From assembly GCA_017455845.1 (NCBI GenBank), contig JAFSYY010000024.1, positions 1 through 38,736 of the forward strand: a DNA stretch of 38,736 nt, read 5' to 3'. The notes beneath the pieces were generated by a model. That model was not told the DNA's origin and did not search any database. It saw only the letters and a list, made by a program, of their open reading frames with translations. Shown here one piece after another: positions 7,881-35,985 of the stretch (its first letter is position 1; each line of letters opens with the position of its first letter). The position numbers and the translations under genes were made by a program. Origin of the DNA: Prevotella sp. (lineage in GTDB: Bacteria; Bacteroidota; Bacteroidia; Bacteroidales; Bacteroidaceae).

Positions 7881-7908
7881 TATGAATTATGAACTATGAA
7901 CTATGAAC
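7881..7908. repeat. Heptamer array over the regulator stop codon
   Basis: Four 7-mers on the coding (minus) strand: GTTCATA three times, then ATTCATA. The regulator stop TAG at 7896-7894 is formed at a unit junction, and the preceding units encode its last residues. Confidence 0.85.
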
Positions 7909-10404
7909 TCCCTTAAACTCTGTCGGACTCTTTCCTGTGCTCTGTTTGAAGCAGCGGCTGAAATATTTTGGGTCGGTGAAGCCACAGGCGTAGGCCACCT
8001 CGCTGACGGTTTTCTCCGGCAGGAGCAACAGTTGACCGGCACGTTTCATGCGGGCCTCGTTGAGCAGTTCCAGCGGGGTGACACCCATCTCCTGCTTCAG
8101 TTTGCGCTGCAGCACCGAGCGGCTGACGGCGGCCGCTGCCGCCATGTCGCCAATATTGGCATCGCTGTTGGCGATGTTTTCCTCCACAAACTGCATCACG
8201 CGCTTCAGCATGGGGTCGACGGCTTCCGGCCTGTCACTGTCGGCGACAGGCTGCGCACTGGCGGGCGCGGTAAGGTCGGAGCCTGGTGGCGGCAGGTTCC
8301 TGTCCTGCCTGATGTCATGCAGCAGGGCGAGGTAGGCCTCCAGCGTCTCGTGCTGCTTGCGTTTGATGCGCCTTATATATAATAAGGTATAGATGATAAC
8401 GGCAACAACCATGAGCAGACAGCCGACCATCAGCAGTTGGCCGTACCACGCCTCCCAGAACGCAGGCTCCACGATGATGGTCAGCGTGCGCCGGTTGGGC
8501 TGCCACTGCCCGTCGGCGTTGGTAGAGCGGATGTCCAGACGGTAGGTGCCGGGCTTCATGTCGAGGAGCGTGGCCGTGCGGCTATGGTCAATGACGTTCC
8601 ATGCCACGCTGTCGTGCCGGCCGTCGGCGGTGAGCCGGAAGGCGTAGATGATGCGCTCCGGGGCCTGATAGTCCAGGGCGGCAAAATGCACGGTGATATT
8701 GCGCTCGCCGGGGTGCAGCGTCAGCGTGTCGCCATATTCCACGGCCCACAGGCTGCTGTCGCCGCCAATGGTGATGGCGGTCAGCACGACAGGCGGCACA
8801 TAGGCCAGGCTGTCGACCACATCAAGCGAGGCCATGCAGGCACCGTCGCTGAGCCCCAGCAGCCAGCGTCCGTCGGGAAGTTGCAGCGGACGTGCCTCAC
8901 TGAAACGGTAGTCTTCGTGGAAGAAATGAGCGTCGTAGATGCGATGCGTTCCCCCGCCGCTGACCACGCTGAGCAGATGGCCGCCCACAACAAGGATCCT
9001 GCCATCGGCAGTCGCAGCCATCGACAGTGCCATGTCGCTGGGCAGCAGATGGTTGGCGGTGTTCAGATGGCGAAACACCGGGTGTTCGTTGAGCAGGTCG
9101 TGCCCGCTAACGATGTTCACTCCTCCGCTCTCTGTGCTAATGAACAGGCCGCCATTGCCATCGTCCAGGATATCCATGATGGCACTGCTGCTGAGGCTGC
9201 CGCCACGGTCGTACTCACGCCGATGATGGGTGAACACCATGTCGTCGGCATCGGCTGTCAGACGTGCCGTCACCAACCCGTCGGTGGTGGCGGCCATCAG
9301 CACACCGTCCTTGGCATCCCTGCTTCCGTCTTCCGGCTGCGGGGATTTGCTGTCACCATCGAGCCATGCGAAGTGGATATAGCGCACACGCTGTCCGCTG
9401 TCGGCGGGATAATGCTTGGGGATATGGAACGTGGGCTCCACGGCTTTGCTCTCGCGGGTATAGAAGAGACCGTTGTGCATGGTGGCCACCCACAGCCTGC
9501 CGTAGCAGTCTTCACGGATGTCGTACACATCCTGGCCACTCATGGCTGGCAGCCTTTCCACGGTGAAACGCCCCGACGCCACCTCATGCAGCCGGAACAG
9601 GCCGTAGGGCTTCGACCCCAGCCAGATTGTGCCGTCGGATGTCTGGTAGATGCAGTAGATGGGTGCACCAAACGAGGTGTATGCCACATGAATGGTGCCG
9701 TCGCTGCCCAGGAAGCCCAGCAGGTTCATCTGGGCATCGTAGATGCGCACGGCGGCATCTTCGCGGGTGGTCAGCCAATAGCGGCCCTCGCTGTCACGAA
9801 ACAAACATTTCACCTCGGCCGACGGGGCAATAGGCAGCCGTTGCGCATGCTGCTCCTCGGTGATACAAAGGTTGATGCGCCCATTGTCCAGCACCCAACG
9901 GTTGCCCTGGCGGTCGCAATATTCGAAGGACACGTAATGCTTCGGAAGACTGTCTTTCAACGCCTTGCTCTGACGGTATCTTATCAGGTCGGAGGCAGCC
10001 TGCTCCTTATCTTCCGTTCCTACCCTGCTGAAGCGGCAGGCACGGGTGTCGAAAAGGAAAAAGTCGTCTTCGTCTGCCCGGCAGACAATCATCCCGTCAG
10101 GACGCAGGCTGATGCCACGGATGCGGTCCGTGGGCATGTTGCAACCGTCGCCGGGCTGCGACTTGAAGGTGTGAAACTCGTAGCCGTCGAAACGACACAG
10201 GCCGTTCCACGTGGCGAACCACATGAAGCCACGCTCGTCTTGCAGCAACTGGGTGATATGGTTGGACGGCACACCGTCTTCCTCGTCATACTGGATGACA
10301 CGGCAGGGAGACTGAGCCAGCAAGCCTTTCTGCATCAAAGGGATTGCCGTCAGGGTGAGCAATATGAAAAAAACAGTCCGTTTGAAGTCCATGTGAGTAG
10401 TCAT
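7894..10404 (-). CDS. Membrane-spanning propeller/AraC regulator lacking kinase and receiver domains
   Basis: An 836-residue protein with an N-terminal membrane/signal segment and a periplasmic two-component-regulator-type beta-propeller (repeats such as GFMWFATWNGLCRFDGYEF and GTIWLGSKPYGLFRL). A Y_Y_Y-type domain ends near residue 640 and one transmembrane helix lies near 655-680 (LLMVGCLLMVVAVIIYTLLY). A C-terminal AraC helix-turn-helix domain occupies about 735-830, with AYACGFTDPKYFSRCFKQSTGKSP as the second helix-turn-helix. Hybrid two-component systems of Bacteroidetes normally have histidine kinase and receiver domains between the helix and the AraC domain; here only about 55 residues intervene. 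By position it probably senses pectic fragments and activates the esterase operon. It has its own promoter and terminator. Confidence 0.88.
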   Translation of the reverse strand: MTTHMDFKRTVFFILLTLTAIPLMQKGLLAQSPCRVIQYDEEDGVPSNHITQLLQDERGFMWFATWNGLCRFDGYEFHTFKSQPGDGCNMPTDRIRGISLRPDGMIVCRADEDDFFLFDTRACRFSRVGTEDKEQAASDLIRYRQSKALKDSLPKHYVSFEYCDRQGNRWVLDNGRINLCITEEQHAQRLPIAPSAEVKCLFRDSEGRYWLTTREDAAVRIYDAQMNLLGFLGSDGTIHVAYTSFGAPIYCIYQTSDGTIWLGSKPYGLFRLHEVASGRFTVERLPAMSGQDVYDIREDCYGRLWVATMHNGLFYTRESKAVEPTFHIPKHYPADSGQRVRYIHFAWLDGDSKSPQPEDGSRDAKDGVLMAATTDGLVTARLTADADDMVFTHHRREYDRGGSLSSSAIMDILDDGNGGLFISTESGGVNIVSGHDLLNEHPVFRHLNTANHLLPSDMALSMAATADGRILVVGGHLLSVVSGGGTHRIYDAHFFHEDYRFSEARPLQLPDGRWLLGLSDGACMASLDVVDSLAYVPPVVLTAITIGGDSSLWAVEYGDTLTLHPGERNITVHFAALDYQAPERIIYAFRLTADGRHDSVAWNVIDHSRTATLLDMKPGTYRLDIRSTNADGQWQPNRRTLTIIVEPAFWEAWYGQLLMVGCLLMVVAVIIYTLLYIRRIKRKQHETLEAYLALLHDIRQDRNLPPPGSDLTAPASAQPVADSDRPEAVDPMLKRVMQFVEENIANSDANIGDMAAAAAVSRSVLQRKLKQEMGVTPLELLNEARMKRAGQLLLLPEKTVSEVAYACGFTDPKYFSRCFKQSTGKSPTEFKGVHSS

Positions 10405-10420
10405 CTTTAAGTTTCCTGTG

Positions 10421-10428
10421 CAAAGATA
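10421..10428 (-). promoter_or_regulatory. Promoter -7 box of the regulator gene
   Basis: TATCTTTG on the minus strand, 17 nt before the ATG at 10404. Good match to TAnnTTTG. Confidence 0.65.
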
Positions 10429-10480
10429 GTAAAAAAAATGAAATATTACAGCCCGAGGCCATTTTTTTTCGCAAAAGCCA

Positions 10481-10510
10481 TTGCAGTATTCAGGAAATTT
10501 TGTACCTTTG
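10481..10510 (+). promoter_or_regulatory. nrdD promoter
   Basis: TTG at 10481-10483 and TACCTTTG at 10503-10510 are separated by 19 nt, matching the Bacteroidetes -33/-7 arrangement. The leader to the nrdD start is about 150 nt. Confidence 0.7.
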
Positions 10511-10530
10511 CATCCGATTCCGGTTTTCAG

Positions 10531-10589
10531 AAACGGAAAACTTTTGAACGACGAAAAAGAAAAAAGTTGTCCAAAACGGAAAACATTTG
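10531..10589 (+). promoter_or_regulatory. Direct repeat in the nrdD leader
   Basis: A 16-bp sequence, AAACGGAAAACTTTTG, at 10531-10546 recurs with one mismatch at 10574-10589. It lies between promoter and start codon, so it could be an operator or RNA element. No known NrdR-box pattern was recognised. Confidence 0.3.
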
Positions 10590-10661
10590 CCTGCCGCAGT
10601 TCATGAGACAGGGCAGAAACAAGACAGACAAAAACCTAAACGAAGGAAACAACATACAATA

Positions 10662-12755: not shown

Positions 12756-12763
12756 TATCTCAA

Positions 12764-12833
12764 ATGAGAAATGAGAAATGAGGAATGAGAAATGAGAAAT
12801 TATTAATTAGTAATGAGTAATTAGTAATTATGA
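12764..12833. repeat. Heptamer array after nrdD, 10 units
   Basis: Ten 7-mers in perfect register: four copies of ATGAGAA and one ATGAGGA, then ATTATTA, ATTAGTA, ATGAGTA, ATTAGTA and ATTATGA. It starts 8 bp after the nrdD stop and supplies TGA or TAG in all three frames. Its distal half is the left arm of the inverted repeat below. Confidence 0.9.
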
Positions 12834-12921
12834 TTACCTTGCAAGCCAATTGTCAGCACGTCTTTCATGCTTGTTTCAGCAGCAATTCTAATCATAATTA
12901 CGAATTACTCATTACTAATTA
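12804..12921. repeat. Inverted repeat in the nrdD-nrdG spacer
   Basis: Arms 12804-12836 and 12889-12921 match at 32 of 33 positions and enclose 52 bp of unrelated sequence. In the transcript this forms a long AT-rich hairpin just before nrdG. Both arms are made of heptamers. Confidence 0.85.
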
Positions 12922-12941
12922 CTCATTAAGAAATAGGAATC

Positions 12942-13418: not shown

Positions 13419-13433
13419 CGGCTCCTCTGCAAT

Positions 13434-14843: not shown

Positions 14844-14847
14844 ACTG

Positions 14848-14855
14848 CAAAAGTA
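14848..14855 (-). promoter_or_regulatory. Promoter -7 box of the phosphoesterase
   Basis: TACTTTTG on the minus strand, 4 nt before the ATG at 14843. If transcription begins at the usual distance, the mRNA has almost no leader. Confidence 0.5.
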
Positions 14856-14909
14856 GTACAAATTATTGAAATAAAGCCTTTTCTCCGCTGCTTTTTCGTA
14901 TTTTTTTTG

Positions 14910-14917
14910 TAATTTTG
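14910..14917 (+). promoter_or_regulatory. Candidate -7 box of the envelope locus
   Basis: TAATTTTG, about 60 nt before the first gene of the plus-strand locus. The -33 match is weak. A 12-bp direct repeat ATGCGGGCTTCG follows at 14926-14937 and 14941-14952. Confidence 0.4.
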
Positions 14918-14957: not shown

Positions 14958-14985
14958 ATGAAGAATGAAGAATGAAGAATGAAGA
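14958..14985. repeat. Heptamer array over a start codon
   Basis: Four ATGAAGA units place an ATG every 7 bp (14958, 14965, 14972, 14979), cycling through all frames. Only the last opens the following gene; the first reads five codons to a stop. Confidence 0.85.
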
Positions 14986-17132
14986 GTGAAAAAATAAAAA
15001 TATGGAATCATCCGGTGGTGGCTTTGGTGAGCAACCTGGCGGTTGCCTACGTGCTGTTCACGCTCTGCAGGCTGGTGTTCCTGGTGATGAACTGGGGACT
15101 GTATGCCGACACGATGACGTGGAGTCACGGCTTGGACCTCTTTGCTGCCGGACTGATTTTCGACACCTCCGCCATCCTTTATACCAACGCGCTGGTCATC
15201 CTGATGATGCTCTTTCCCCTGCACTGGAAGGAGTGTGCAGGCTACTACAAGGTGGTACGCTGGATCTATGTGGTGTGTAACAGCGTGGCACTGTGGGCAA
15301 ACCTGTGCGACTGTGTCTATTTTCCCTATACCGGCAAGCGCACCACGACAACAGTGTTCTATGAGTTCAGCAATGAGGGCGCTGGCGGCATGGCAAAGAT
15401 TATGGGCGAGCAGTTCCTGGCCAACTGGTACCTGGTGCTGCTGGGCTTTGGGCTGTCGTGGGTGCTGTGGCGGCTGTTTTTACCGAGAGAGAGCAAACAG
15501 GGCAAACAGGGCAGAGAGAGCAAACAGGACGAACAGGCGGGGAAAACCCGCCTGCACGGACACAACGAAGGACACGGACACAACGAAGGACACGGACAAA
15601 ACGAAGGACACGGACACAACGAAGGACACGGACGCAACGAAGGACACGGACAAAACGAAGGACACGGACACATTATACGTTATTATGCAGTGCAGACGGT
15701 GGCGCTGCTGTTGACGATACCACTGTGTGTGGCCGGCATGCGTGGCGGCTTTGCTACTGCCGTGCGCCCCATCACCATCAGCAACGCCAACCAGTTTGTT
15801 GACCGGCCGGCGGAGACTGGCATCGTGCTGAACACACCCTTCAGCATCTACCGTACACTGGGCAATGAACCACTCATCACGCCCGACTACATGAGCGACG
15901 AGGAAGCCGAAGCCCTCTTTTCGCCTATCCATGAGCCTGCCGACTCCGTGGCCTTTACACCAAAGAATGTGGTGGTGTTTATCCTGGAGAGTTTCAGCAA
16001 ACAGCACTTCGGGTATTATAATGGAGGAAAGACGAAGGAGAAAGGAGGAAGGAGTGTGGGCTTCACGCCTTTCCTCGACTCACTGATAGCCAACCATGCC
16101 ATGACGTGGCAATACTCGTATGCCAACGGCCGCAAGAGCATTGAGGGCATGCCGTCAACCCTATCGTCGCTGCCCAACTATGTAGAGCCGCTCTTCCTCA
16201 CACCTGCCTCACTGAACCGCATGTCGGGACTGGCCCGCGAACTGGGTGAGCAGAAGGGCTATACGACGGCTTTCTTCCACGGTGCACAGAACAACTCCAT
16301 GGGTTTCCAAGCCTTTGCGCGTGCCACCGGTTTCCAGCGTTACTATGGCAGGACGGAATACAATGAAGACCCGCGTTTTCATGGCGATGACGACTTCGAC
16401 GGTACGTGGGCCATCTGGGACGAGGAGTTCCTGCAGTTCTTTGCCTTGCAGATGAGTGCCATGCAGCAGCCCTTTATGACGGCCGTGTTCACGGCCTCGT
16501 CGCATACGCCTTTCGACCTGCCCGAACGCTATAAGGACGTGTTCCCCAAAGGCGAGAAAGAGATACAGGAGGCTATTGCCTATACCGACCATGCCCTGCG
16601 TCTGTTTTTCGAGAAAGCCAGCCATGAGCCATGGTATAAAAACACCCTCTTCGTCATCACGGCCGACCATTGCAGCACGCATATCGACCCCTTCTACATG
16701 ACGTCGCTGGGCTATTTCAACGTTCCCATCATCTTCTATGCACCAGGCGACAGCACCTTGCATGGTTATGACATGCAGCGCGTAGTAGAACAGACTGACA
16801 TCATGCCCACGGTGCTGTCGTATCTGCATTACGACAAGCCCTATCTGGCCTTTGGTAAGGATATGCTGCACACGCCAGCAGAAGAGACCCACGCCCTGCA
16901 CTGGGTGCCCGAGAGCAGCGGCTATGAGTTTGTGAAGGGACCGTATGCCCTGGAGTTCGACGGTCAGGAAGTGACGGCGGCCTACTGCTACCGCACCGAC
17001 TCTGTGTTTGCGCATGATGTGTTGCACACCATGCCTGCCGATACGCTGGACATGATGACCCGTCAGATGAAGTCCATCATCCAGCAGTATATGAAACGTA
17101 TGAACAACGACCAGTTGGTGGTGGAGAAATGA
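14979..17132 (+). CDS. LTA-synthase-type phosphotransferase (alkaline phosphatase superfamily)
   Basis: A 717-residue membrane protein with about five transmembrane helices in residues 1-260, then an extracytoplasmic sulfatase-fold domain. Motifs: NVVVFILESFS (metal aspartate/glutamate region, near 328), NGRKSIEGMPS with a Ser at the nucleophile position near 387, and ITADHCS for late metal ligands. This family moves phosphoglycerol or phosphoethanolamine onto envelope glycans or lipid A; the donor is not visible here. The cytoplasmic loop before the last helix contains a short GC palindrome and six 18-bp units giving a His/Gly/Asn/Glu-rich stretch. A heptamer array (16023-16057) sits near the catalytic domain start. 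The last two codons and the stop come from a GAGAAAT array. Confidence 0.85.
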   Translation: MKSEKIKIWNHPVVALVSNLAVAYVLFTLCRLVFLVMNWGLYADTMTWSHGLDLFAAGLIFDTSAILYTNALVILMMLFPLHWKECAGYYKVVRWIYVVCNSVALWANLCDCVYFPYTGKRTTTTVFYEFSNEGAGGMAKIMGEQFLANWYLVLLGFGLSWVLWRLFLPRESKQGKQGRESKQDEQAGKTRLHGHNEGHGHNEGHGQNEGHGHNEGHGRNEGHGQNEGHGHIIRYYAVQTVALLLTIPLCVAGMRGGFATAVRPITISNANQFVDRPAETGIVLNTPFSIYRTLGNEPLITPDYMSDEEAEALFSPIHEPADSVAFTPKNVVVFILESFSKQHFGYYNGGKTKEKGGRSVGFTPFLDSLIANHAMTWQYSYANGRKSIEGMPSTLSSLPNYVEPLFLTPASLNRMSGLARELGEQKGYTTAFFHGAQNNSMGFQAFARATGFQRYYGRTEYNEDPRFHGDDDFDGTWAIWDEEFLQFFALQMSAMQQPFMTAVFTASSHTPFDLPERYKDVFPKGEKEIQEAIAYTDHALRLFFEKASHEPWYKNTLFVITADHCSTHIDPFYMTSLGYFNVPIIFYAPGDSTLHGYDMQRVVEQTDIMPTVLSYLHYDKPYLAFGKDMLHTPAEETHALHWVPESSGYEFVKGPYALEFDGQEVTAAYCYRTDSVFAHDVLHTMPADTLDMMTRQMKSIIQQYMKRMNNDQLVVEK
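15534..15554. repeat. Short GC palindrome in CDS (sulfatase-like copy)
   Basis: CAGGCGGG and CCCGCCTG around an A-rich centre, followed by CAC. It is the only copy in sense orientation relative to its gene and abuts the 18-bp array. Confidence 0.7.
15555..15662. repeat. 18-bp tandem array in CDS, 6 units
   Basis: Six exact-length 18-bp units (CACGGACACAACGAAGGA type) plus a half unit to 15671. They encode repeated G-H-x-N-E-G-H residues in a predicted cytoplasmic loop. Unit number can change without breaking the frame. Confidence 0.9.
16023..16057. repeat. In-frame purine heptamers
   Basis: Five 7-mers: GGAGGAA, AGACGAA, GGAGAAA, GGAGGAA, GGAGTGT. They encode the G-G-K-T-K-E-K-G-G stretch between the metal-binding ESFS block and the catalytic region. 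Confidence 0.6.
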
Positions 17133-17151
17133 GAAATGAGAAATGAGAAAT
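17124..17151. repeat. Heptamer array over the stop of the LTA-synthase-like gene
   Basis: Four GAGAAAT units. The stop TGA at 17130-17132 lies at the first unit junction. Further TGA/TAA triplets at 17137, 17144 and 17151 cover all three frames. Confidence 0.9.
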
Positions 17152-17156
17152 AAAAG

Positions 17157-19061
17157 ATGAAAGAATTTATGTATGTACTGAGGCGCTTTGTGCCTCCCTA
17201 TAAGAAATACCTGGCCCTGTCGGTGTTGTTCAACATCCTCTCGGCCGTGCTCAACATCTTCTCGTTTGCCGCGCTGATACCTATCCTGCAGATTCTGTTC
17301 CAGACAGGCGAGGCAGAGCAGGCCACCAGTGTGATGGCATGGGACTGGAGCAACGTGCAGGGCGTGCTGATGAACAACCTGAACTACTATGTCAACGGAC
17401 TGATTGCCGACTACGGCCCTACTACCACCCTGCTGCTGATAGGGCTGTTTCTGACCGTTACCACCATGCTGAAGACAGGTTCTTATTTCCTGACATCGGC
17501 CTGTATCGTGCCCATCCGAACGGGTGTGGTGCGCGACATCCGCAACCAGTTGTACCAGAAAATCACAGCACTACCACTGGGTTTCTTCTCCGAAGAGCGC
17601 AAAGGCGACATCATTGCCCGCATGAGCGGCGATGTGCAGGAGGTGGAAAACTCCATCATGTCGTCTATCGAGATGCTGTTCAAAAATCCCATCCTCATCA
17701 TCGCCTATTTCTCCACCATGCTGTTCGTGTCGTGGCAACTCACCCTGTTTACCCTGATCATCGTGCCTATCATGGGCTGGATCATGGGATTGGTAGGACG
17801 TAAGTTGAAGCAGGCATCGGCCAAGGCGCAGAGCCTATGGAGTGACACGATGAGCCAGGTGGAGGAGACACTGGGCGGCCTGCGCATCATCAAGGCCTTC
17901 TGTGCCGAGGAGAAGATGAACCGGCGTTTCGACCAGATCAACTCTTCCTATCGCACACATCTGATGAAAGTGAATATCCGTCAGTCGTCGGCCCATCCCA
18001 TGAGTGAGTTTCTGGGCACGGTGATGATTGTCATCGTGCTTTGGTTCGGTGGCATGCTGGTGCTCAATAACCAGGCTATCACGGGTCCGACGTTCATCTA
18101 CTACATGGTGATCCTCTACTCCATCATCAACCCGCTGAAGGAATTCTCGAAAGCCAGTTACAACATCCCCAAGGGTCTGGCCTCGATGGAGCGTATCGAC
18201 AAGATCCTCCTGGCCGAGAACACCATCAAGGAGGTGCCCAACCCCAAGCATATCGCCTCGTTTGAGCACCAGATAGAGTTCCGCCATGTGTGGTTCGGGT
18301 ATAGAGAAGCCCCCCTTTCGTCCCCCGAGGGGAACACGACAGTCACTAAAGAAGCCCCCTCGGGAGCCGTAGGGGGGGCTGTCAACTGGGTGTTGAAGGA
18401 CATCAAACTGGTGATTCCCAAGGGAAAGACCATCGCACTGGTAGGACAGAGTGGCGGCGGCATGTCCACGCTGGTGGACCTGATACCCCGTTATTACGAT
18501 GTGCAGAAAGGTGAGGTGCTTATCGATGGCATCAACGTGAAGGATCTGGGCATCCACGACCTGCGACAGTTGATAGGCAACGTCAACCAGGAGGCCATCC
18601 TGTTTAACGACACCTTCAGGAACAACATCGCCTTCGGCGTGGAGAGTGCTACCCAGAAGCAGGTAGAGGAAGCCGCCCGCATTGCCAATGCCTACGACTT
18701 CATCATGCAGTCGGAACATCAGTTTGAGACAAATATCGGTGACCGTGGCGGACGACTGTCGGGCGGCCAGCGCCAGCGCGTCAGCATTGCCCGTGCCATC
18801 CTGAAGAACCCGCCCATCCTGATTCTCGACGAGGCCACCTCGGCACTCGACACCGAGAGCGAGCGACTGGTGCAGGATGCCCTGGAGCGCCTGATGAAGA
18901 CGCGCACCACCGTGGCCATTGCCCACCGCCTTTCGACCATCAAGAATGCTGACGAGATATGCGTATTGCACGAAGGACAGATAGTGGAACGAGGCACTCA
19001 CGACGAACTGCTGGGCATCAATGGCTATTACAAGAAACTGAACGACATGCAAAGCCTTTAG
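17157..19061 (+). CDS. MsbA-like ABC exporter half-transporter, Walker A lysine replaced
   Basis: A 634-residue fused permease-ATPase. Six transmembrane helices occupy about residues 1-330 and the nucleotide-binding domain runs from about 370. The signature LSGGQRQR, Walker B ILILDEATSALD, Q-loop NVNQE and H-loop AIAHRLST are intact. Walker A reads GQSGGGMST: Met436 (ATG at 18462-18464) stands where the invariant lysine is expected. A palindromic element at 18308-18380 adds about 24 residues between the A-loop tyrosine (WFGY) and Walker A. Members such as MsbA flip lipid A or other lipid-linked glycans. It lies between two LTA-synthase-like genes. If the residue is genuine, ATP hydrolysis should be strongly reduced. 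Confidence 0.9.
   Translation: MKEFMYVLRRFVPPYKKYLALSVLFNILSAVLNIFSFAALIPILQILFQTGEAEQATSVMAWDWSNVQGVLMNNLNYYVNGLIADYGPTTTLLLIGLFLTVTTMLKTGSYFLTSACIVPIRTGVVRDIRNQLYQKITALPLGFFSEERKGDIIARMSGDVQEVENSIMSSIEMLFKNPILIIAYFSTMLFVSWQLTLFTLIIVPIMGWIMGLVGRKLKQASAKAQSLWSDTMSQVEETLGGLRIIKAFCAEEKMNRRFDQINSSYRTHLMKVNIRQSSAHPMSEFLGTVMIVIVLWFGGMLVLNNQAITGPTFIYYMVILYSIINPLKEFSKASYNIPKGLASMERIDKILLAENTIKEVPNPKHIASFEHQIEFRHVWFGYREAPLSSPEGNTTVTKEAPSGAVGGAVNWVLKDIKLVIPKGKTIALVGQSGGGMSTLVDLIPRYYDVQKGEVLIDGINVKDLGIHDLRQLIGNVNQEAILFNDTFRNNIAFGVESATQKQVEEAARIANAYDFIMQSEHQFETNIGDRGGRLSGGQRQRVSIARAILKNPPILILDEATSALDTESERLVQDALERLMKTRTTVAIAHRLSTIKNADEICVLHEGQIVERGTHDELLGINGYYKKLNDMQSL
18308..18380. repeat. Palindromic element inside the ABC exporter gene
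   Basis: Imperfect inverted repeat with arms of about 25 bp (18308-18332 and 18355-18380; AGCCCCCC and CGAGGGG motifs). It adds a Ser/Pro/Gly/Ala-rich segment to the nucleotide-binding domain without a frameshift. Confidence 0.8.
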
Positions 19062-19063
19062 AA

Positions 19064-19126
19064 GTGAAGAGTGAAGAGTGAAGAGGGAAGAGTGAAGGGT
19101 GAAGAGTGAAGGGTGAAGAGTGAAGA
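19064..19126. repeat. Heptamer array after the ABC exporter, 9 units
   Basis: Nine units in perfect register, six GTGAAGA, two GTGAAGG and one GGGAAGA, starting 3 bp after the stop TAG at 19059-19061. TGA occurs in all three frames. Confidence 0.92.
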
Positions 19127-19144
19127 ATTTGCTACCGCTGCAGA

Positions 19145-25149: not shown

Positions 25150-25899
25150 ATGAAACTCATTGTCAGTCCTGAATATCAGAGCCTCAGCGAATGGCTGGCG
25201 CAGGTGCCTCGGTTGTTTGACGACAATCAGGGTGAACTGCTGTATAAGGGGCGCAATCAGATCAGGTTGTTTGTGGTTGGCGACAAGAAGAAAGTGGTGG
25301 TGAAGCGCTACAAGAGACACGACATCATCAAGACGCTGGCCTATACCTTCTTCAGGAAGAACAAGGCCCGACGCTCGTATGAGAATGCCGTAAGCCTCAC
25401 GCAGCGCGGCTTCCATACCCCACAGGCGGTGGCCTATATGGAATGTACTACGGCAGGGCTGATGACACAGGTCTATTATGTCTGCGCCTATACCGACAGC
25501 GAGCCCATCCGCCCGCGCCTCATCGAGCAGGAGCCTTTCGACGAGGCTTTGGCCGTGGCCTACGCCCGCTATGTGGCCCGTCTGCATGAAGCGGGCGTGC
25601 TGCACCGCGACCTGAACCCCACGAATGTGCTGTTCAGGCATGAGCACGGCGGATACGATTTTGAACTCATCGACATCAACCGCATGCAGTTCTTCGACAG
25701 CCCCGTGCCCAAGGCAGCATGTATGGAGAACCTGACGCTCTTCTATTGGCTCACCCCTGCCTACCGCTTTATTCTCAACGAATATGCGCGTCAGCGCGGC
25801 TGGACGGAAGCCGATATTGCCGAGGCCATCCGCGTAAAGGAACGTCATGACAGACGATGGGTGCGCCGGAAAAAGATAACGCATCCGTTTAGGAAGTGA
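25150..25899 (+). CDS. LPS core heptose/Kdo kinase-like protein (WaaP/RIO fold)
   Basis: A 249-residue protein-kinase-like fold. The ATP-anchoring lysine lies in KKVVVKRYK near residue 55, the catalytic loop HRDLNPTNVL starts at His152 and the metal-binding IDINR lies near residue 174. These match the Kdo/WaaP family that phosphorylates inner-core sugars. It leads a plus-strand operon with two glycosyltransferases and a LicD gene. Its last codon and stop fall in the first heptamer of the following array. Confidence 0.85.
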   Translation: MKLIVSPEYQSLSEWLAQVPRLFDDNQGELLYKGRNQIRLFVVGDKKKVVVKRYKRHDIIKTLAYTFFRKNKARRSYENAVSLTQRGFHTPQAVAYMECTTAGLMTQVYYVCAYTDSEPIRPRLIEQEPFDEALAVAYARYVARLHEAGVLHRDLNPTNVLFRHEHGGYDFELIDINRMQFFDSPVPKAACMENLTLFYWLTPAYRFILNEYARQRGWTEADIAEAIRVKERHDRRWVRRKKITHPFRK

Positions 25900-25944
25900 G
25901 AGGTGAGGGGTGAGAGGTGAGAGGTGAGGGGTGAGAGGTTAGAA
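25896..25944. repeat. Heptamer array over the kinase stop codon, 7 units
   Basis: Units in register: GTGAGAG, GTGAGGG, GTGAGAG, GTGAGAG, GTGAGGG, GTGAGAG, GTTAGAA. The stop TGA is in the first unit and TGA recurs in all frames. The reverse complement of this heptamer type forms the in-frame array at 26567-26636. Confidence 0.92.
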
Positions 25945-25957
25945 AAATTCTAGTGCA

Positions 25958-27031
25958 ATGAAATATTATATTGAAGTAGGTACTGTAAACAAGGCCAAGC
26001 AAGATATCGACGAGATATGCCGCAGGGAAGGATTTACGAATCTGACCCACCGTAACTTTGGCAATGGCGGCGTAGGCCGCTTCCTGACAAAGTTGGTCAG
26101 CGTGACCAGCATCTTGTGGTGTATGAAGAAGGGCGACATGCTTTTCCTGCAATACCCCATGAAGAAGTTCTATTATATGGCCTGTGTATTGGCAAAGATG
26201 AAAGGCGCCAAGGTTGTGACGGTTATTCACGACCTTGGCGCCTTTCGTCGTCATAAACTGACACCCGAGCAGGAAAACAGCCGACTCTCGAAGACTGTTT
26301 TCCTCATTGTCCACAACCCCACCATGCGCGACTACCTGATAGAGCACGGCTATAAGGGCGGCATCCACTGTCTGCAGATCTTCGACTATCTGGCTCCCTG
26401 TCAGCCTGCCGACTATGCTGCGCCCCACCAGCCATGGCGTATCGTCTATGCCGGCAACCTGGCACGATGGCGCAATGAGTTCCTGTATCATATCGAAGCA
26501 GTGATGAAGGGTTGGCAGATGGTTCTCTATGGCAAAGGCTTCGAGATGCCCGCCTCTCCCACCCCACCCCTCACCTCTCACCCCTCAGACCAAACCTCTC
26601 GCCCCTCACCGCTCACCCCTCACCCCTCATCCCTCACCTACCGCGGCTTTATCGCCAGCGACGATTTCATTGCCCATGCAGAGGCCGACTTCGGTCTGGT
26701 GTGGGACGGCGACTCCATGGATGAGTGTACCGGCGACTGGGGAGAATACCTGCGTATCAACGACCCGCACAAGACCTCCTTCTACCTGCGTGCCGCCATC
26801 CCTGTCATCGTATGGAAGGAGGCCGCCATGTCACCGTTTATAGAGGAGCAGAAATTAGGCATCAGCGTTGGCTCGCTGTCAGAGATCGGCGAGCGTATTG
26901 CCGCCCTTTCTCCCGCCGACTATCAAGTGCTGAAGCAGAACGCCCTCGCCATGAGTCAGCGCCTGAACGAAGGCTATTATATTAAAGAAGGTATGAAAGC
27001 AGCCGACGATTATTTGAACAGCCATGTATAA
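25958..27031 (+). CDS. Beta-1,6-galactofuranosyltransferase-like GT-B enzyme
   Basis: A 357-residue protein resembling the WbbI-like galactofuranosyltransferase group. The N-terminal half has FLQYPMKKFYYMACVLAKM and VVTVIHDLGAFR. The C-terminal half has IVYAGNLARW, a Rossmann-type segment and FGLVWDGDSMDECTGDWGEYLRINDPHKTSFYLRAAIPVIVW, typical of this family. Between GKGFEMP and YRGFIASDD lies a Pro/Ser/Thr/His-rich stretch encoded by a heptamer array, which is not part of the fold. It overlaps the next gene by 8 bp. The transferred sugar is inferred from the family only. Confidence 0.82.
   Translation: MKYYIEVGTVNKAKQDIDEICRREGFTNLTHRNFGNGGVGRFLTKLVSVTSILWCMKKGDMLFLQYPMKKFYYMACVLAKMKGAKVVTVIHDLGAFRRHKLTPEQENSRLSKTVFLIVHNPTMRDYLIEHGYKGGIHCLQIFDYLAPCQPADYAAPHQPWRIVYAGNLARWRNEFLYHIEAVMKGWQMVLYGKGFEMPASPTPPLTSHPSDQTSRPSPLTPHPSSLTYRGFIASDDFIAHAEADFGLVWDGDSMDECTGDWGEYLRINDPHKTSFYLRAAIPVIVWKEAAMSPFIEEQKLGISVGSLSEIGERIAALSPADYQVLKQNALAMSQRLNEGYYIKEGMKAADDYLNSHV
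26567..26636. repeat. In-frame heptamer array in the glycosyltransferase gene, 10 units
   Basis: Ten 7-mers in register (CCCCTCA, CCTCTCA, CCGCTCA, TCCCTCA and one diverged unit GACCAAA). Three heptamers equal seven codons, so the protein shows a seven-residue repeat (P-L-T-S-H-P-S / P-L-T-P-H-P-S). The orientation is antisense to the TGA-containing form seen after stop codons, so no stop arises. Confidence 0.88.
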
Positions 27032-30604: not shown

Positions 30605-30615
30605 TTTCTTCTTTT

Positions 30616-30647
30616 CGATATCTCGATATATCGTTATTACGAAACTA
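30616..30647. repeat. Octamer array over the stop of the XRE/cupin gene
   Basis: Four 8-mers on the plus strand: CGATATCT, CGATATAT, CGTTATTA, CGAAACTA. On the coding strand the stop TAG is the first three bases of the first octamer. Confidence 0.65.
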
Positions 30648-31202: not shown

Positions 31203-31213
31203 AATTCTAAGCC

Positions 31214-31241
31214 CTTAACTCTTAACTCTTAACTCTTAACT
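31214..31241. repeat. Heptamer array over the proC stop codon
   Basis: Four CTTAACT units on the plus strand (AGTTAAG on the coding strand). The proC stop TAA overlaps the array, and further TAA triplets every 7 bp cover all three frames. Confidence 0.9.
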
Positions 31242-32023: not shown

Positions 32024-32032
32024 TTTGTTTTT

Positions 32033-32080
32033 TCGAGATTTCGGCATTTCGAGATTTCGGCATTTCGAGATTTCGATTAT
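32033..32080. repeat. Octamer array between argD and proC, 6 units
   Basis: Six 8-mers in register: TCGAGATT and TCGGCATT alternating, ending TCGATTAT. The argD stop lies 3 bp beyond the array, and the proC start follows about 10 bp after its other end. Confidence 0.85.
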
Positions 32081-32083
32081 CCC

Positions 32084-33211
32084 TCACAACGCTGCCTGCA
32101 GCCGCTTGACGAACTCATCGGCCAGTTCTTTGGTGAAGGTCAATGGCGGCAACAGGCGGAGGACATTCTCGCCCGAACAGCCCGTAAAGACATGCTGCTC
32201 ATAGACCAGACGCTCGCGCACAGGCTTCTGCGGCGTATAGAGTTCGATGCCGATCATCAGGCCGCGACCGCGCACCTCTTTAATTTTATCATTATTTAAT
32301 TTTTTAATTTTATCCATCAGGTAGTCGCCCACCTCACGGGCGTTCTCCACCAGGTTCTCCTGCTCCATCACGTCGAGCACCGACAGGGCGGCGGTGCAGG
32401 CCAGATGGTTGCCGCCGAAGGTGGTGCCCAGTTGTCCATAGACCGCCTTGAACTCCGGCGAGATCAGCACCGCACTCATGGGGAAGCCGTTGCCGATGCC
32501 CTTCGCCACGGTGATGATGTCGGGCTTGATGCCCAGCCACTGGTGGGCGAAGAATTTTCCGCTGCGGCCGTAGCCACACTGTATCTCGTCGCAGATGAGC
32601 ACGGCGCCGTAGCGCTTGCAGGCGTAGGCCAGTTTCTGTGCAAACTCGGGCGTAGCCATCTGTATGCCGCCCACGCCCTGTATGCACTCCAGGATGACGG
32701 CGGCGATGCCCTCACGCGTCAGTTCGCGCACCCACGGCTCTATGTCGTTCAACGGCAGGAAGCGCACGTGGTGGTTGTCGTTGATGGGTGCCACGATCTT
32801 CGGGTTGTTGGTCACCTCGACGGCCAGGCTGGTACGGCCGTGGAACGCCTTCTCGCACGACAGCACGCGCACGTAGCCCGTCTTGAACGATGCCAGTTTC
32901 AGGGCGTTCTCGTTGGCCTCGGCACCGCTGTTCACCAGAAACAACTGGTAGTCCTCGTAGCCGCTGGCCTTGCCCAGCCGTTCGGCCAGTTGCTGCTGCA
33001 ACTTGTTCTGTACGGAGTTGGAGTAGAACCCCAGCGTCTGCATCTGCTCGCTCATCTTCTCCACATAGTGCGGATGGCAGTGGCCGATGCTGATGACGGC
33101 ATGGCCGCCATAGAGGTCGAGGTACTCCTGACCTTTGTCGTCCCACACTTTACAGTCTTTGCCCTTCACGATGTTGATGTTGAAGAGCGGGTAAACGTCG
33201 AATAGTTTCAT
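32084..33211 (-). CDS. argD: Acetylornithine (or succinylornithine) aminotransferase
   Basis: A 375-residue class III aminotransferase. Motifs: YLDLYGGHAVISIGHCHP, LVNSGAEANENALKLA, AFHGRTSLA, ICDEIQCGYGRSG with the PLP aspartate, and the Schiff-base lysine in ITVAKGIGNGFP. It transaminates N-acylglutamate semialdehyde to N-acylornithine. Some Bacteroides use succinylated intermediates, so the acyl group is left open. It lies between argC and proC, and short spacers imply one transcript. Confidence 0.94.
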   Translation of the reverse strand: MKLFDVYPLFNINIVKGKDCKVWDDKGQEYLDLYGGHAVISIGHCHPHYVEKMSEQMQTLGFYSNSVQNKLQQQLAERLGKASGYEDYQLFLVNSGAEANENALKLASFKTGYVRVLSCEKAFHGRTSLAVEVTNNPKIVAPINDNHHVRFLPLNDIEPWVRELTREGIAAVILECIQGVGGIQMATPEFAQKLAYACKRYGAVLICDEIQCGYGRSGKFFAHQWLGIKPDIITVAKGIGNGFPMSAVLISPEFKAVYGQLGTTFGGNHLACTAALSVLDVMEQENLVENAREVGDYLMDKIKKLNNDKIKEVRGRGLMIGIELYTPQKPVRERLVYEQHVFTGCSGENVLRLLPPLTFTKELADEFVKRLQAAL

Positions 33212-33240
33212 AATTACTTATTCTTAATCGCCGAAAGCGA

Positions 33241-33275
33241 CAATTCTTAATTCTTAATTCTATATTCTATATTCA
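33241..33275. repeat. Heptamer array over the argC stop codon
   Basis: Five units on the coding strand: TGAATAT, AGAATAT, AGAATTA, AGAATTA, AGAATTG. The argC stop TGA is the first three bases of unit one. TAG/TAA triplets follow in the other frames. Confidence 0.9.
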
Positions 33276-34262
33276 GAAGGCACTGGCTTTCAGCCGCAGA
33301 CCGGCGGTCTCGTCGATGCCAAACATCAGGTTCATGTTCTGGACAGCCTGCCCCACGGCACCCTTCAAGAGGTTGTCGATGCAGGAGGTGACGAGCAGTT
33401 TGTTATCGTATTTCTCGCAGTGCACCAGGGCCTTGTTGGTATTCACCACCTGCTTCAGGTCCAGGGGCTTGTCGCTGTAGTGCGTAAACGCGGCATCACG
33501 GTAGAAGTCCTTGTAAGCCTCGATGATGTCGTCGATGGGCGCGGGTGTCCTGACCACGGCTGTACAGAAGATGCCGCGGGCAAAGGGACCGCGATAGGGT
33601 ATGAAGTCGATGCTGGCATCCAGATAGCCCTGCACCTGGCGGAGCGACTGGCGTATCTCTGCGACGTGCTGGTGCTGGAAAGGCTTGTAGATGCTCAGGT
33701 TGTCGGCACGCCAGGAGAAATGCGTGGTGGCACCGGGCTTCTGACCGGCACCCGTAGAGCCGGTGATGGCGTTGACGCTCACATCCTCCTTCAGCAGGTT
33801 CAGATAGGCAGCCGGCAGCAGGGCCAGTTGGATGGCGGTGGCAAAGCATCCGGGATTGGCTACATGCTGCGCCTTCCGTATCTCCTCGCGGTTGATCTCG
33901 GGCAAACCATAGACGAAGTCATAATTCTTGATGATTAATGCTTCATTCTTAACTCTGAAGTCCTGCGCCAGGTCGATCATCTTCACATGTTCAGGGATGG
34001 TGTGCTCCTTGAGGAAGGCCTCGCTCTTGCCATGGCCGAAGCAGAAGAACACCACATCGACATCCTCGAAGGGCATCTGGTCGGTGAACGTCAGGTCGCT
34101 ATCGCCCACGAGTCCTTCGTGCACGTCGCTCACCATATTACCGGCATTGCTCTCGCTGTTGGCAAACACAATCTCGGCCTGCGGATGGTTCAGCAGCAAC
34201 CGCAGCAGTTCGCCGCCCGTATAGCCGGCGGCCCCTAATATTCCAATCTTTATTCTTTCCAT
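33273..34262 (-). CDS. argC: N-acetyl-gamma-glutamyl-phosphate reductase
   Basis: A 329-residue protein with the NADP-binding GAAGYTGGELLRLLLNHP at the N-terminus and the catalytic cysteine in VANPGCFATA near residue 150. It reduces N-acyl-glutamyl phosphate to the semialdehyde used by ArgD. The start could be 34262 (MERIKIG) or 34268 (MKMERIKIG); I use 34262. First gene of the argC-argD-proC group, with a good promoter just upstream. Confidence 0.95.
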   Translation of the reverse strand: MERIKIGILGAAGYTGGELLRLLLNHPQAEIVFANSESNAGNMVSDVHEGLVGDSDLTFTDQMPFEDVDVVFFCFGHGKSEAFLKEHTIPEHVKMIDLAQDFRVKNEALIIKNYDFVYGLPEINREEIRKAQHVANPGCFATAIQLALLPAAYLNLLKEDVSVNAITGSTGAGQKPGATTHFSWRADNLSIYKPFQHQHVAEIRQSLRQVQGYLDASIDFIPYRGPFARGIFCTAVVRTPAPIDDIIEAYKDFYRDAAFTHYSDKPLDLKQVVNTNKALVHCEKYDNKLLVTSCIDNLLKGAVGQAVQNMNLMFGIDETAGLRLKASAF

Positions 34263-34293
34263 CTTCATTTTCAATCTTCAATCTCTTGCGCTG

Positions 34294-34301
34294 CAAAGGT
34301 A
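34294..34301 (-). promoter_or_regulatory. Promoter -7 box of the arginine/proline operon
   Basis: TACCTTTG on the minus strand, about 32 nt before the argC start. Good match to TAnnTTTG. Confidence 0.7.
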
Positions 34302-34391
34302 ATTAAAAATTTGCGAAATGGAAAGATAATTTTCAAAAATATATCATTTTTGTTACAGAACAGGTATTTTTTTGAAATAAATCATCATTTT

Positions 34392-34423
34392 TTTGGTATT
34401 CATTATTTTTATTTGTACTTTTG
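34392..34423 (+). promoter_or_regulatory. GH30 gene promoter
   Basis: TTTG at 34392-34395 and TACTTTTG at 34416-34423 are separated by 20 nt, a near-ideal Bacteroidetes promoter, with a 29-nt leader to the ATG. Confidence 0.75.
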
Positions 34424-34452
34424 TCACCTCTTATTAATATAACCATTTAATC

Positions 34453-35955
34453 ATGACAAGACTATTTACTACAATGATTCTCATGGCCGCTGTACTTGCC
34501 AGTCAAGCAGCGAAGCCACGCTCTTCCCTGACAGTGTACGACACCCGCAAGCAGACCATCACCGGCTTTGGCGGCGCATGCTGCGACGGTGCCATGAAAC
34601 CCTTCGGCAGCGACAACGCATGCGTGGGTAAACTTTACGGCGCAAAGTCGAAGATTGGACTGAACATCCTGCGTATGGAGATCTCGCCGAGTTTCACGGG
34701 CGACAACTGGGGCGACTACGACTGGAACGGCTCGCTGCCATCGGCCAAGACGGTGAAGAACCGCGGCGGCATCGTCTTTGGCACACCATGGTCGCCCCCA
34801 GGGGAATACAAGACCAACGGCACGGCGCAGGGCGGCAACGCCGAAGACCAGGGCTACCAAAAAGGTAAGTTGCGCGAGGACTGCTACGAGAAATTCTTCC
34901 CCTGGCTGAACACCTTCCTGAAATGGATGAAGGACCACGGCGTTGCCGTAGATGCCGTGTCCATACAGAACGAGCCCGACTGGTGGGTGAGTTATTCCGG
35001 CTGCCTCTATGACCCGGAGGACGAGGTGAAACTGGTCAAGAACTATGCCCACATGCTCGACCGCGAGACCTTTGCGGGCGTGCGCCTGATCAGCGGAGAG
35101 CCGCTGGGCTTCACACAGAACTATACCGACCCGCTCATGAAAGACCCCACATGCCGCGAGCAGATCGACATCGTGGCCGGACACCTCTATGGCCATGCAC
35201 CCCTTATCTACATGAAGGAGGCAGCAAAACTACCACTGGAATACGGCAAGGAGGTATGGATGACGGAGCACTCGGTGACCGACAATATAGGTGAACGCCT
35301 GCCCACCTGGCACGAGAACCTCATCTTTGCCGAGGAACTCAACGAGTGTATGCTGGCTGGCTGCACGGGCTACATCTACTGGTACCTGCGTGCACACTGG
35401 GCCTTTGCTGGTACTGGCGAGTCGAAATATGGCTCGGCCAACAAAAAAGACGAACTGCTGCCCCGCGCCTTCGTGATGTCGCATTTCTCGAAGAATGTCA
35501 CCGGCTCCACACGCCTGACCACCTCGCTCGACAAGACCACGGGCGAAGGCAACCCCTACGAGTTCTCGGCATATATCAAAGGCGACTCGCTCATCGTCAT
35601 GGCTATTGACACACTCGACACCCCGCGCGACCTGAAAATCAAGTTGCCATACAAAGTGAAGAGCGGCACGCTATGGCAGTCGACGGGCAACGAGACAGAG
35701 AACCTCTGCCAGAAGTCGGACATCGACATCACCGAACCGACAGACGAGTTCCTCTTCGAGATGCCGGCACGCAGCCTGAACACCTATATATTTATGATCG
35801 ACGACGGCGATGCGGCCATCAGCAACCTGCAGCCCGTCAGCGACGACACGAAGACTTACTTCGACCTGCAGGGCCGCCGTCTGCCGGAGCCACAAGGCAT
35901 CTGCATAGAGCGGTCGGTCAACGGCACCTCCAGGAAGATTCAGGTCTGGAAGTGA
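34453..35955 (+). CDS. Secreted GH30 glycoside hydrolase (xylanase/glucuronoxylanase-like)
   Basis: A 500-residue protein with a signal peptide (residues 1-19) and a (beta/alpha)8 GH30 catalytic domain starting at TITGFGGACC. The acid/base glutamate is in SIQNEPDWW near residue 175 and the nucleophile in VWMTEHSV near 270. YIYWYLRAHW is a typical aglycone-side block. A beta-domain and a C-terminal tail (FDLQGRRLPEPQG through RKIQVWK) follow. Motif spelling favours the XynC-like subfamily, which cuts glucuronoarabinoxylan; other GH30 specificities are possible. It stands alone with its own promoter and is divergent from argC. Confidence 0.88.
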   Translation: MTRLFTTMILMAAVLASQAAKPRSSLTVYDTRKQTITGFGGACCDGAMKPFGSDNACVGKLYGAKSKIGLNILRMEISPSFTGDNWGDYDWNGSLPSAKTVKNRGGIVFGTPWSPPGEYKTNGTAQGGNAEDQGYQKGKLREDCYEKFFPWLNTFLKWMKDHGVAVDAVSIQNEPDWWVSYSGCLYDPEDEVKLVKNYAHMLDRETFAGVRLISGEPLGFTQNYTDPLMKDPTCREQIDIVAGHLYGHAPLIYMKEAAKLPLEYGKEVWMTEHSVTDNIGERLPTWHENLIFAEELNECMLAGCTGYIYWYLRAHWAFAGTGESKYGSANKKDELLPRAFVMSHFSKNVTGSTRLTTSLDKTTGEGNPYEFSAYIKGDSLIVMAIDTLDTPRDLKIKLPYKVKSGTLWQSTGNETENLCQKSDIDITEPTDEFLFEMPARSLNTYIFMIDDGDAAISNLQPVSDDTKTYFDLQGRRLPEPQGICIERSVNGTSRKIQVWK

Positions 35956-35957
35956 TA

Positions 35958-35985
35958 GCGAGGGGCAAGGTACGAGGTACGAGGT
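35958..35985. repeat. Heptamer array after the GH30 stop
   Basis: Four units: GCGAGGG, GCAAGGT, ACGAGGT, ACGAGGT, starting at the TAG that directly follows the TGA stop. Unlike the others, these heptamers contain no stop codon. Confidence 0.75.

Follow-up and report, generated by a model that had tools for sequence, protein, structure and literature searches.

REP elements are short palindromes dispersed in spacers and occur with RAYT transposases, whose genes are usually flanked by their own repeats. The STRR heptamers are 7-nt tandem repeats of filamentous cyanobacteria, a phylum other than that of Prevotella. Several further systems have been described in other bacteria or in Prevotella itself. 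Heptameric repeats with the unit GGGNATC or GGGGA(C/T)T occur in Xanthomonas and Nostoc (Rehm et al. 2015, PMC4692102) and are described there as lying mostly between aligned genes, either in sense within 50 bp of a stop codon or antisense upstream of a start codon. The same account gives 70 convergent pairs in X. campestris and 75 in X. axonopodis, and gene overlaps, partial ones included, of 11% and 7% (PMC4692102). The TAACTGA repeats of Beggiatoaceae, cyanobacteria, and five Bacteroidetes are described as having one unit, placed mostly just upstream of start codons, with one inverted pair reported (MacGregor 2015, PMC4679880). The Rickettsia palindromic elements, as presented in a review of MITEs (PMC10969869), are short, lie in frame within unrelated genes, and encode a recurrent peptide. 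PINSR is a 188-bp repeat with 177 and 184 copies in Prevotella intermedia and P. nigrescens (Naito et al. 2015, PMC4755523).

We analysed a window of 38,736 nucleotides (the whole stretch of contig JAFSYY010000024.1 of a rumen-type Prevotella sp., assembly GCA_017455845.1), its source genome, relatives, and genomes of the genus. Like the repeats of Xanthomonas and Nostoc, the Prevotella repeats are 7-nt tandem arrays in spacers, with convergent pairs and some copies in genes. They differ from that description in their RTGARRR-like unit, in the many unit families within one genome, in having a cap and a preferred start, in their copies in viral contigs, and in that 37% of the arrays lie wholly in genes (PMC4692102). 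None of the Prevotella units listed has the form GGGNATC or GGGGA(C/T)T with its quadruplex-forming G-tracts; most are devoid of GGG, and a few contain it (e.g., GTGAGGG and GAAGGGA). With the TAACTGA repeats they share dispersed 7-mer direct repeats that are patchy among relatives, forward units giving stops in three frames, and some overlaps with the upstream stop; the single unit and the placement on the start-codon side set the TAACTGA repeats apart, as far as they are described (PMC4679880). Compared by description, the Rickettsia elements also have in-frame copies in unrelated genes and a recurrent peptide, but in Prevotella the arms consist of 7-bp units in tandem, most elements are single-armed, many are at gene ends, and the palindrome that spans a whole Rickettsia element is missing in the 103 of 126 arrays with no gapless partner arm. 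The terminal inverted repeats of MITEs are found in paired copies only. PINSR is likewise a short repeat highly amplified in the spacers of one Prevotella lineage; it is described as 188 bp long and devoid of terminal inverted repeats, and that description makes no mention of heptamer arrays (PMC4755523). A literature search, mostly outside subscription journals, gave among the matches listed no paper on such arrays in Prevotella.

Arrays of the window and their stop codons

The arrays and associated features of the window are as follows.

7881–7909, minus strand: AGTTCAT/ATGAACT-family array at the end of the AraC-type hybrid regulator gene (7894–10404, minus strand), whose stop it overlaps
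12762–12830, plus strand: ATGAGAA array passing into TTAGTAA units, beginning 6 bp past the nrdD stop (12755)
12896–12928, minus strand: inverted partner array preceding nrdG (12942)
14958–14990, plus strand: ATGAAGA array where the first LTA-synthase-like gene (14979–17132) begins
17124–17164, plus strand: GAGAAAT array within which the first LTA-synthase-like gene ends (TGA stop, 17132)
19063–19126, plus strand: AGTGAAG array 1 bp past the ABC exporter stop (19061)
19121–19138, plus strand: cap TGAAGAATTTGCTACCGC terminating the ABC exporter array, one of 100 copies in the genome
20927–20967, plus strand: GAGAAGG array with the end of the second LTA-synthase-like gene (20935), stop codon included
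25896–25943, plus strand: GTGAGAG array that takes in the end of the Kdo/WaaP-type kinase gene (25899) with its TGA stop
26553–26639, minus strand: GTGAGGG-family array, read antisense and stop-free, within the gene at 25958–27031
31214–31241, minus strand: AGTTAAG array directly past the proC stop, with an overlap of 1 base
33242–33274, minus strand: AGAATTA/AGAATAT array sharing 2 bases with the argC stop (33273)
35968–35985, plus strand: short array of 2.6 ACGAGGT copies, under the detection score, 12 bp beyond the GH30-like gene’s stop (35955)

The sequence-only reading of this window had named nine genes followed by such arrays, and all nine are present at these genes; eight pass an independent period-7 detector, which the GH30 array fails. 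It had also anchored most of them on stop codons. The stop is indeed inside or overlapping the array for the regulator, both LTA-synthase-like genes, the kinase, proC, and argC, and just ahead of it for the ABC exporter (1 bp) and nrdD (6 bp). Reading the arrays confirmed that seven of the nine carry stops in all three frames, including that of the regulator (TAG or TAA in three of three frames of the sense strand); the GAGAAGG array has TGA only every 21 bp and the ACGAGGT array has no stop. That each array has its own sequence is true within the window and not genome-wide, where units and one cap recur. The second half of the nrdD array is the left arm of a hairpin (12798–12927, arms 39, loop 52) made with the inverted partner before nrdG, and the GAGAAAT array extends to the ABC exporter start (17157). 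The nrdG partner, the in-gene array at 26553–26639, and the gene-start array at 14958–14990 had been absent from that reading.

We extended the search to 396 kb of the source genome (G000, 2.43 Mb), taken as whole stretches from contigs with GAGAAAT matches, so that array densities in this sample may be high. Genes were called as hexamer-scored open reading frames rather than by a standard caller. The sample contains 112 period-7 arrays, against none in a first-order Markov control; 0–8 arrays were found at each other period between 4 and 20, except the multiple 14 (79), and period 22 gave 22. Arrays are not placed at random relative to stops: 44 of the 59 tandem-spacer arrays lie within 15 bp of one, compared with 28.7 ± 3.0 for permuted positions. 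Among these 44, three-frame stops are found in 37 on the sense strand (15.2 expected from shuffling) and in 12 on the antisense strand; they are present at 12 of 74 array-free gene ends. The anchoring recurs in two further genomes, with 15 of 24 arrays in G075 (7.1 ± 1.9 expected) and 9 of 12 in G096 (4.8 ± 1.4 expected, in regions partly picked by matches). Counting arrays nearer a stop than a start in G075 gives 16 against 11.9 (P = 0.08), and period 7 in G096 is barely above period 8 (17 vs 15 arrays).

Capped family and a clean empty site

The best-resolved family has the structure (TTA)AGTGAAGA-(RTKAAGA)n-ATTTGCTWCCGC, with a preferred start, a variable count of 7-bp units, and a cap in about half of the cases. 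In the 396-kb sample, the cap GAATTTGCTWCCGC directly ends 12 of the 26 arrays of this family, leaving 14 without it. Genome-wide (2.43 Mb), TGAAGAATTTGCTWCCGC has 100 copies with at most two mismatches, compared with 1 for the reversed control. The arrays also have a preferred start phase: 17 of 23 (RTKAAGA) arrays begin at one base (chi-square, 3e-13). The capped family is thus, by its recurrent cap and preferred start phase, a dispersed element. The start phase is also biased for ATGAGAA arrays (7e-4) and weakly so for GTGAGAG (0.05) and GTGCGAG (0.04); families other than (RTKAAGA) showed no clear cap. By eye, TAA or TTAA often directly precedes (RTKAAGA) arrays, and TTAA may be part of the element because it also precedes in-gene copies.

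Relatives provide one clean empty site. In G007, the proC stop is followed directly by TTATGGACGAAC, with no insert, and the window array is wedged between the two; no target-site duplication is readable at this single site. The nrdD–nrdG gap is 0–7 bp in 30 of 80 named relative loci (8 more seem, by eye, to overlap), and 10 of the 80 have a period-7 run there, with units that differ between species. The AGTGAAG array past the ABC exporter stop is absent in 23 relative loci, two of which are the same place counted twice. An insert in the GlnRS gene is found in decayed form in G013 as well and is absent in the other 21 aligned relatives. The start phase, the cap, its approximately 100 copies, the proC empty site, and the short nrdD–nrdG gaps uphold, for the capped family, the element process that the sequence-only reading had offered as one option.

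A gapless inverted partner arm accompanies 23 of the 126 arrays, in 14 convergent hairpins; a looser rule applied to 108 random places gave 5. Since the other 103 arrays are unpaired, ‘palindromic’ describes a minority. Twenty loci picked for elements entered the tests of paired copies, hairpin mismatches, GTGAGAG/GTGCGAG orientation, and TGA-breaking units; they were excluded from the counts of periods, stop anchoring, pair frequency, start phase, and stop/start orientation, and from those in G075 and G096.

Copies inside genes, orientation, and viral contigs

As many as 46 of the 126 arrays lie wholly within genes, 28 in number, which include GlnRS, PurL, and ABC-F. Further paired copies, at loci picked for the cap, are in the L178 gene, an FKP-type gene, and a TPR/OmpA-type gene; a RecQ-type gene (L182) was dropped because its open reading frame call begins inside the element. 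In-frame copies encode the recurrent peptide SEELRVKSEEFATA...NSSLFTLHSSL. In the two TGA-bearing families, a unit that breaks TGA is present in 18 of 18 sense in-gene arms and in 2 of 16 antisense ones (Fisher, 9e-8). The absence of in-frame stops from sense arms is partly true by definition, and the information lies in how they are avoided. GTGAGAG arrays within genes are antisense in 15 cases and sense in none; the stop-free GTGCGAG arrays are divided 5:5, some sharing a gene. Pooled by unit class over three genomes, in-gene orientation did not differ (13:26 for stop-bearing vs 7:8 for stop-free units; Fisher, 0.53).

Orientation is strongly biased at stops (61:9, with 12 ambiguous) and weakly at starts (19:11). 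The three arrays of exceptional orientation that overlap the stop have TAA or TAG in the sense strand. The unambiguous arrays 6–60 bp upstream of starts are antisense 11:0, which stop supply does not explain. Selection for three-frame stops, the other option of the sequence-only reading, is supported as a filter on survivors, both by the contrast between the strong bias at stops and the weak one at starts and by viral contigs, where the opposite orientation also persists if the stop is the cap’s TAG. In 53 distinct viral-contig copies, some in related genes, the gene ends in this TAG in 19 and at the array in 14. An up/down asymmetry of 81:18, against 361:277, was also seen in viral contigs, among pairs that are not independent.

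Proposed insertion with survival, and its rivals

We favour, with a probability of roughly 0.65, the reading in which the arrays are arms of short, dispersed, heptamer-armed insertion elements, mostly single and at times paired in inverted orientation on either side of a short variable core, seen through a survival filter. Survivors would be of three kinds: elements in very short operon gaps, with the gene’s stop inside or just ahead of them; elements among a gene’s final codons, with the stop supplied by their RTGA units or by the TAG of an inverted cap; and, within genes, elements with an orientation or variant that permits read-through. The copies would arise by transposition-like insertion, and selection, rather than target choice, would make the position bias. 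The stop-anchored three-frame-stop pattern would then reflect which insertions survive; it would not mark stop codons as the target and need not be a function. Slippage may change the number and sequence of units within an array; as the cause at stops it is improbable.

The elements could be moved by a RAYT-like Y1 transposase, as RAYTs are thought to move REPs; we regard this as unlikely, even if it fares best among the alternatives. As in REP/RAYT systems, many array-rich Prevotella genomes have a RAYT-like gene, noticed through weak PF01797 matches; one such gene lies at G000:C35:4050–5129. Its best NCBIfam match is the REP-associated tyrosine transposase, at 32–36 bits, under the cut-off of 80. 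The profile A1 (E ≤ 1e-30) finds it in 62 of 120 genus genomes, and among the 58 genomes at least 90% complete, array matches occur in 22 of 24 with it and 16 of 34 without (Fisher, 5.7e-4), a post hoc association whose statistics ignore phylogeny. Copy number also correlates with array count (Spearman, 0.50), a link that the DDE_Tnp_1 control does not show. However, A1 at this threshold is absent from 15 of the 56 genomes with at least 20 array matches, including G096, which is 99% complete and has 163. The tandem heptamer arms are also unlike REPs, and the elements are not beside RAYT-like genes: 20 such loci (78 kb, up to 1.5 kb on each side) contain 3 arrays, none of them RTGARRR, and no caps.

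Slightly less probable is replication slippage, by which short seeds near stops would expand in sevens and be tolerated where the protein sequence is free; a polymerase-footprint effect, cited in PMC4692102, has been proposed for bacterial heptameric repeats. The dominance of period 7, the variable unit number, and the absence of a directly adjoining cap in several families and in 14 of the 26 arrays of the best one fit such a process. It is disfavoured for the capped family by the cap at about 100 loci, the start phase, and the proC empty site; the inverted pairs and the falling of all 126 arrays into 17 unit clusters also speak against it. Expansion from a local seed could account for other families, since these have no clear cap.

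It is doubtful that an insertion enzyme favours stop-codon-like or TAA/TTAA sites and so hits gene ends directly. The bases before (RTKAAGA) arrays and the anchoring in three genomes would suit this, but TTAA also precedes copies in genes, and in viral contigs it is often the cap side that adjoins the stop. Targeting of gene ends, which the sequence-only reading had suggested, is not needed, given the 46 arrays within genes and the 0–7-bp nrdD–nrdG gaps of 30 relatives.

Still more doubtful is a selected gene-end cassette acting through all-frame translation stop, hairpin-mediated RNA decay or termination, or RTGA reinitiation. The sense-strand three-frame stops and the hairpins at some junctions accord with it, but copies inside genes require no such role, 30 of 120 genus genomes have no match to RTGARRR ×3, with uneven presence between species, and no Rfam family matched in six sources (66.8 kb). 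Selection on RNA structure was rejected as unconvincing: of 33 hairpins, 7 unclassed ones were left out, and G-U to A-C arm mismatches stand at 21:10 in the 14 hairpins from spacers and at 9:21 in the 12 from genes. It is least probable that the elements are gene-end adaptors shared by Prevotella and its phages. As short homologous sequences with stops for either direction of reading, RTGA units for one and the cap’s TAG for the other, they would let recombination join unrelated genes and keep proteins unfused in any frame. The one direct test gave this no support: pairwise alignments of viral contigs break at elements in 101 of 122 pair tests and at other gene ends in 674 of 813, with no excess of breakpoints at elements, and a recombination hot-spot there was rejected as well.

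These results recast a long-standing question, what makes heptamer arrays cluster around stop codons in unrelated bacteria, as a testable model of insertion plus filter. They add, besides Rickettsia, another apparent case of core enzymes into which short elements have spread in frame. Caution is called for with some Prevotella protein sequences, parts of which may derive from elements. The uneven presence of the arrays among species of one genus offers natural comparisons with and without them.

Period-7 arrays anchored on stop codons

The nine heptamer arrays linked to gene stops in the window, as named in the sequence-only reading, are borne out by Tandem Repeats Finder and our ORF list, and most of the accompanying gene names were matched by Pfam. 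The window corresponds to a single 38.7-kb contig (C85) from a genome (G000) of 2.43 Mb that is 68% complete. In a 396-kb sample of this genome, made up of the window and 20 further stretches, drawn from contigs matching GAGAAAT and hence possibly rich in arrays, we found 112 period-7 arrays at score 14, against none in the Markov control and 0–8 for each of the other periods from 4 to 20 (except for period 14). Period 22 is also elevated in the sample (22 arrays), and longer tandem repeats of 22 bp lie close to both contig ends (window 452–581 and 36168–36405). At score 12, the sample has 126 period-7 arrays, with 71 intergenic, 46 well inside genes, and 9 at gene edges.

Within tandem spacers, 44 of 59 arrays lie ≤15 bp from a stop (28.7 ± 3.0 by permutation, with none of 2,000 rounds reaching 44), and 42 of 59 are closer to the stop than to the start (29.6 expected, P = 0.001). 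The sense strand of 37 of the 44 stop-near arrays has stops in all three frames, as does the antisense strand of 12; shuffling predicts 15.2 of 44, and array-free gene ends give 12/74. These counts and their controls uphold the earlier claims of stop anchoring and three-frame stops. The 15-bp anchoring was repeated in two other genomes, G075 (where the excess nearer to stops than to starts has P = 0.08) and G096 (where period 7, with 17 arrays, is barely above period 8, with 15). The stop codon is within the array in 49 of the 82 stop-nearest arrays of the three genomes.

Arrays at stops have their purine-rich strand in sense (61:9, 12 ambiguous, P = 1e-10); of the exceptions, the three that overlap the stop carry TAA or TAG on their sense strand. 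At starts, this strand points into the spacer in 19:11 cases (9 ambiguous, P = 0.2). Unambiguous arrays 6–60 bp upstream of starts are antisense (11:0) in the samples of G000, G075, and G096, perhaps through avoidance of purine-rich, RTG-bearing leaders, and those overlapping a start are sense in 6:2.

Unit families, caps, and empty sites

All 126 arrays fall into 17 greedy clusters, the largest with 24, 21, 18, and 12 members. Many arrays of the best-resolved family, (RTKAAGA), are followed by the cap GAATTTGCTWCCGC; the sample has 12 such cases among 26 arrays, a count that becomes 34 of 57 once loci chosen for elements are included. With ≤2 mismatches, TGAAGAATTTGCTWCCGC has 100 copies in G000, against 1 for its uncomplemented reverse; the same search gave 18 in G007, 6 in G013, and 0–2 in the rest. 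The start phase of (RTKAAGA) arrays is strongly non-uniform (17/23 begin at one base, P = 3e-13), as is that of ATGAGAA arrays (P = 7e-4) and, more weakly, that of two more families (P = 0.04–0.05). Had the arrays originated by independent local slippage, recurrent units, a cap, and a preferred start phase would not be expected, and together they argue against this origin.

A recurrent module stands between array and cap at L009:16382–16515, L185:1460–1593, L186:1376–1440, and L187:687–760; it contains a small palindrome and opens with GCGCTCGACCTCTGGTCGCTTGCT (one base off in L185). Capped arrays also occur less than about 200 bp from contig ends of G000 (C3, C4, and C28; loci L113, L125, L188, and L177), as if the assembly had broken off at these repeats.

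Some arrays form facing pairs with a short core between them, e.g., at L018 15137–15271 and in the nrdD-nrdG spacer of the window. Nine listed pairs are capped on both sides; the left half of the one in L022 is ordinary gene sequence. A gapless partner arm was found for 23 of 126 arrays, giving 14 hairpins (purine-rich arm left in 13); with a less strict rule, 5 of 108 random places had one. The remaining 103 arrays are single arms by this test.

Relatives provide sites lacking the arrays. In the window, the proC stop is followed by the array and then by TTATGGACGAAC; in G007, TTATGGACGAAC comes directly after the stop. The array of the ABC exporter is absent after that stop in all 23 relative loci shown (two being the same place twice), and G014 has there an array of a different unit. 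Among 80 retained loci of named genomes, the closest NrdD proteins are mostly from Prevotella MAGs, many from rumen (RUG12087 at 95%). In these 80 loci, two of which gave no nrdG start, the nrdD-nrdG gap is 0–7 bp in 30, a short gap that we infer to be ancestral, and has a period-7 run (score 10) in 10, with units varying between species. Two single-arm copies in this gap, at L049 and L082, terminate with a version of the (RTKAAGA) cap.

Copies inside genes and in viral contigs

The 46 in-gene arrays occupy 28 genes, among them genes that read as GlnRS, PurL, and ABC-F, the latter two with three arrays each; PDB matches support the first two identities. The GlnRS insert, SGSKLFTLHSSLLTYQGP, occupies a variable loop; G013 has a diverged form of it in this position, and the remaining 21 aligned relatives have no insert. 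Additional loci, selected because they contain the cap, have paired copies in the L178 gene, where the element replaces a variable loop, and in FKP-type and TPR/OmpA-type genes (names from reading translations). Long open frames in G006 and G001 likewise match the element peptide. Among in-gene arms of the two TGA-bearing families, a unit with broken TGA occurs in 18/18 sense versus 2/16 antisense arms. GTGAGAG is sense in 0/15 in-gene cases, and the stop-free GTGCGAG is split 5 to 5, some copies lying within one gene. Pooled over three genomes, in-gene orientation does not differ significantly by unit class (13:26 versus 7:8).

The 57 viral-contig pieces, from IMG/VR, which may contain bacterial sequence, represent 53 distinct copies. 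An opposite-strand gene stops in the cap's TAG in 19 (18 as ...R-stop), a sense gene stops at the array in 14, and the others are inside genes (3), in other spacers (15), or at edges (2). Their common factor is a gene stop within the element, with no single orientation. Of ten proteins from these contigs, five have PHROGs matches (reverse transcriptase, SbcC-like protein, head maturation protease, and two of unknown function) and five have none. Related genes in L306, L309, L321, and L333 all end ...NPWV(F/Y)AY(T/E)FEL(V/T)R-stop in the cap; neighbouring genes differ among the first three.

Candidate mobiliser and known systems

RTGARRR x3 is present in 90 of 120 genus genomes, in very uneven numbers. 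Its reversed control is also elevated in array-rich genomes (1,964 versus 5,857 matches overall), probably through matches to purine-rich arrays of other kinds. Across these genomes, a RAYT-like Y1 transposase profile (A1) correlates with arrays; no such correlation is seen for a DDE transposase family. A1 was not found in 15 of the 56 genomes with ≥20 array matches, and we found no such arrays or caps flanking RAYT-like genes at 20 loci, leaving this protein a candidate only. Some RAYT-like proteins (340–424 aa; L254:2048–3154, L255:1653–2675, L260:1682–2956) have a long C-terminal extension, with up to 10 matches per genome; L254 and L260 contain internally repeated peptides, and L255 and L256 are followed by tandem repeats of other kinds.

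None of the titles listed in a literature search on Prevotella concerned heptamer arrays. As excerpted, published accounts describe Xanthomonas heptamer arrays that follow the placement rule seen here and also form convergent pairs (PMC4692102), TAACTGA heptamers in Beggiatoaceae and a few Bacteroidetes (PMC4679880), in-frame palindromic elements within Rickettsia genes (PMC10969869), and a 188-bp spacer repeat of P. intermedia that differs from the present arrays (PMC4755523). The heptamer array phenomenon is real and widespread in the genus. The case is not proven for families lacking a cap; overall, the arrays are best read as dispersed heptamer-armed elements, of which the copies at gene ends would be those that survive.
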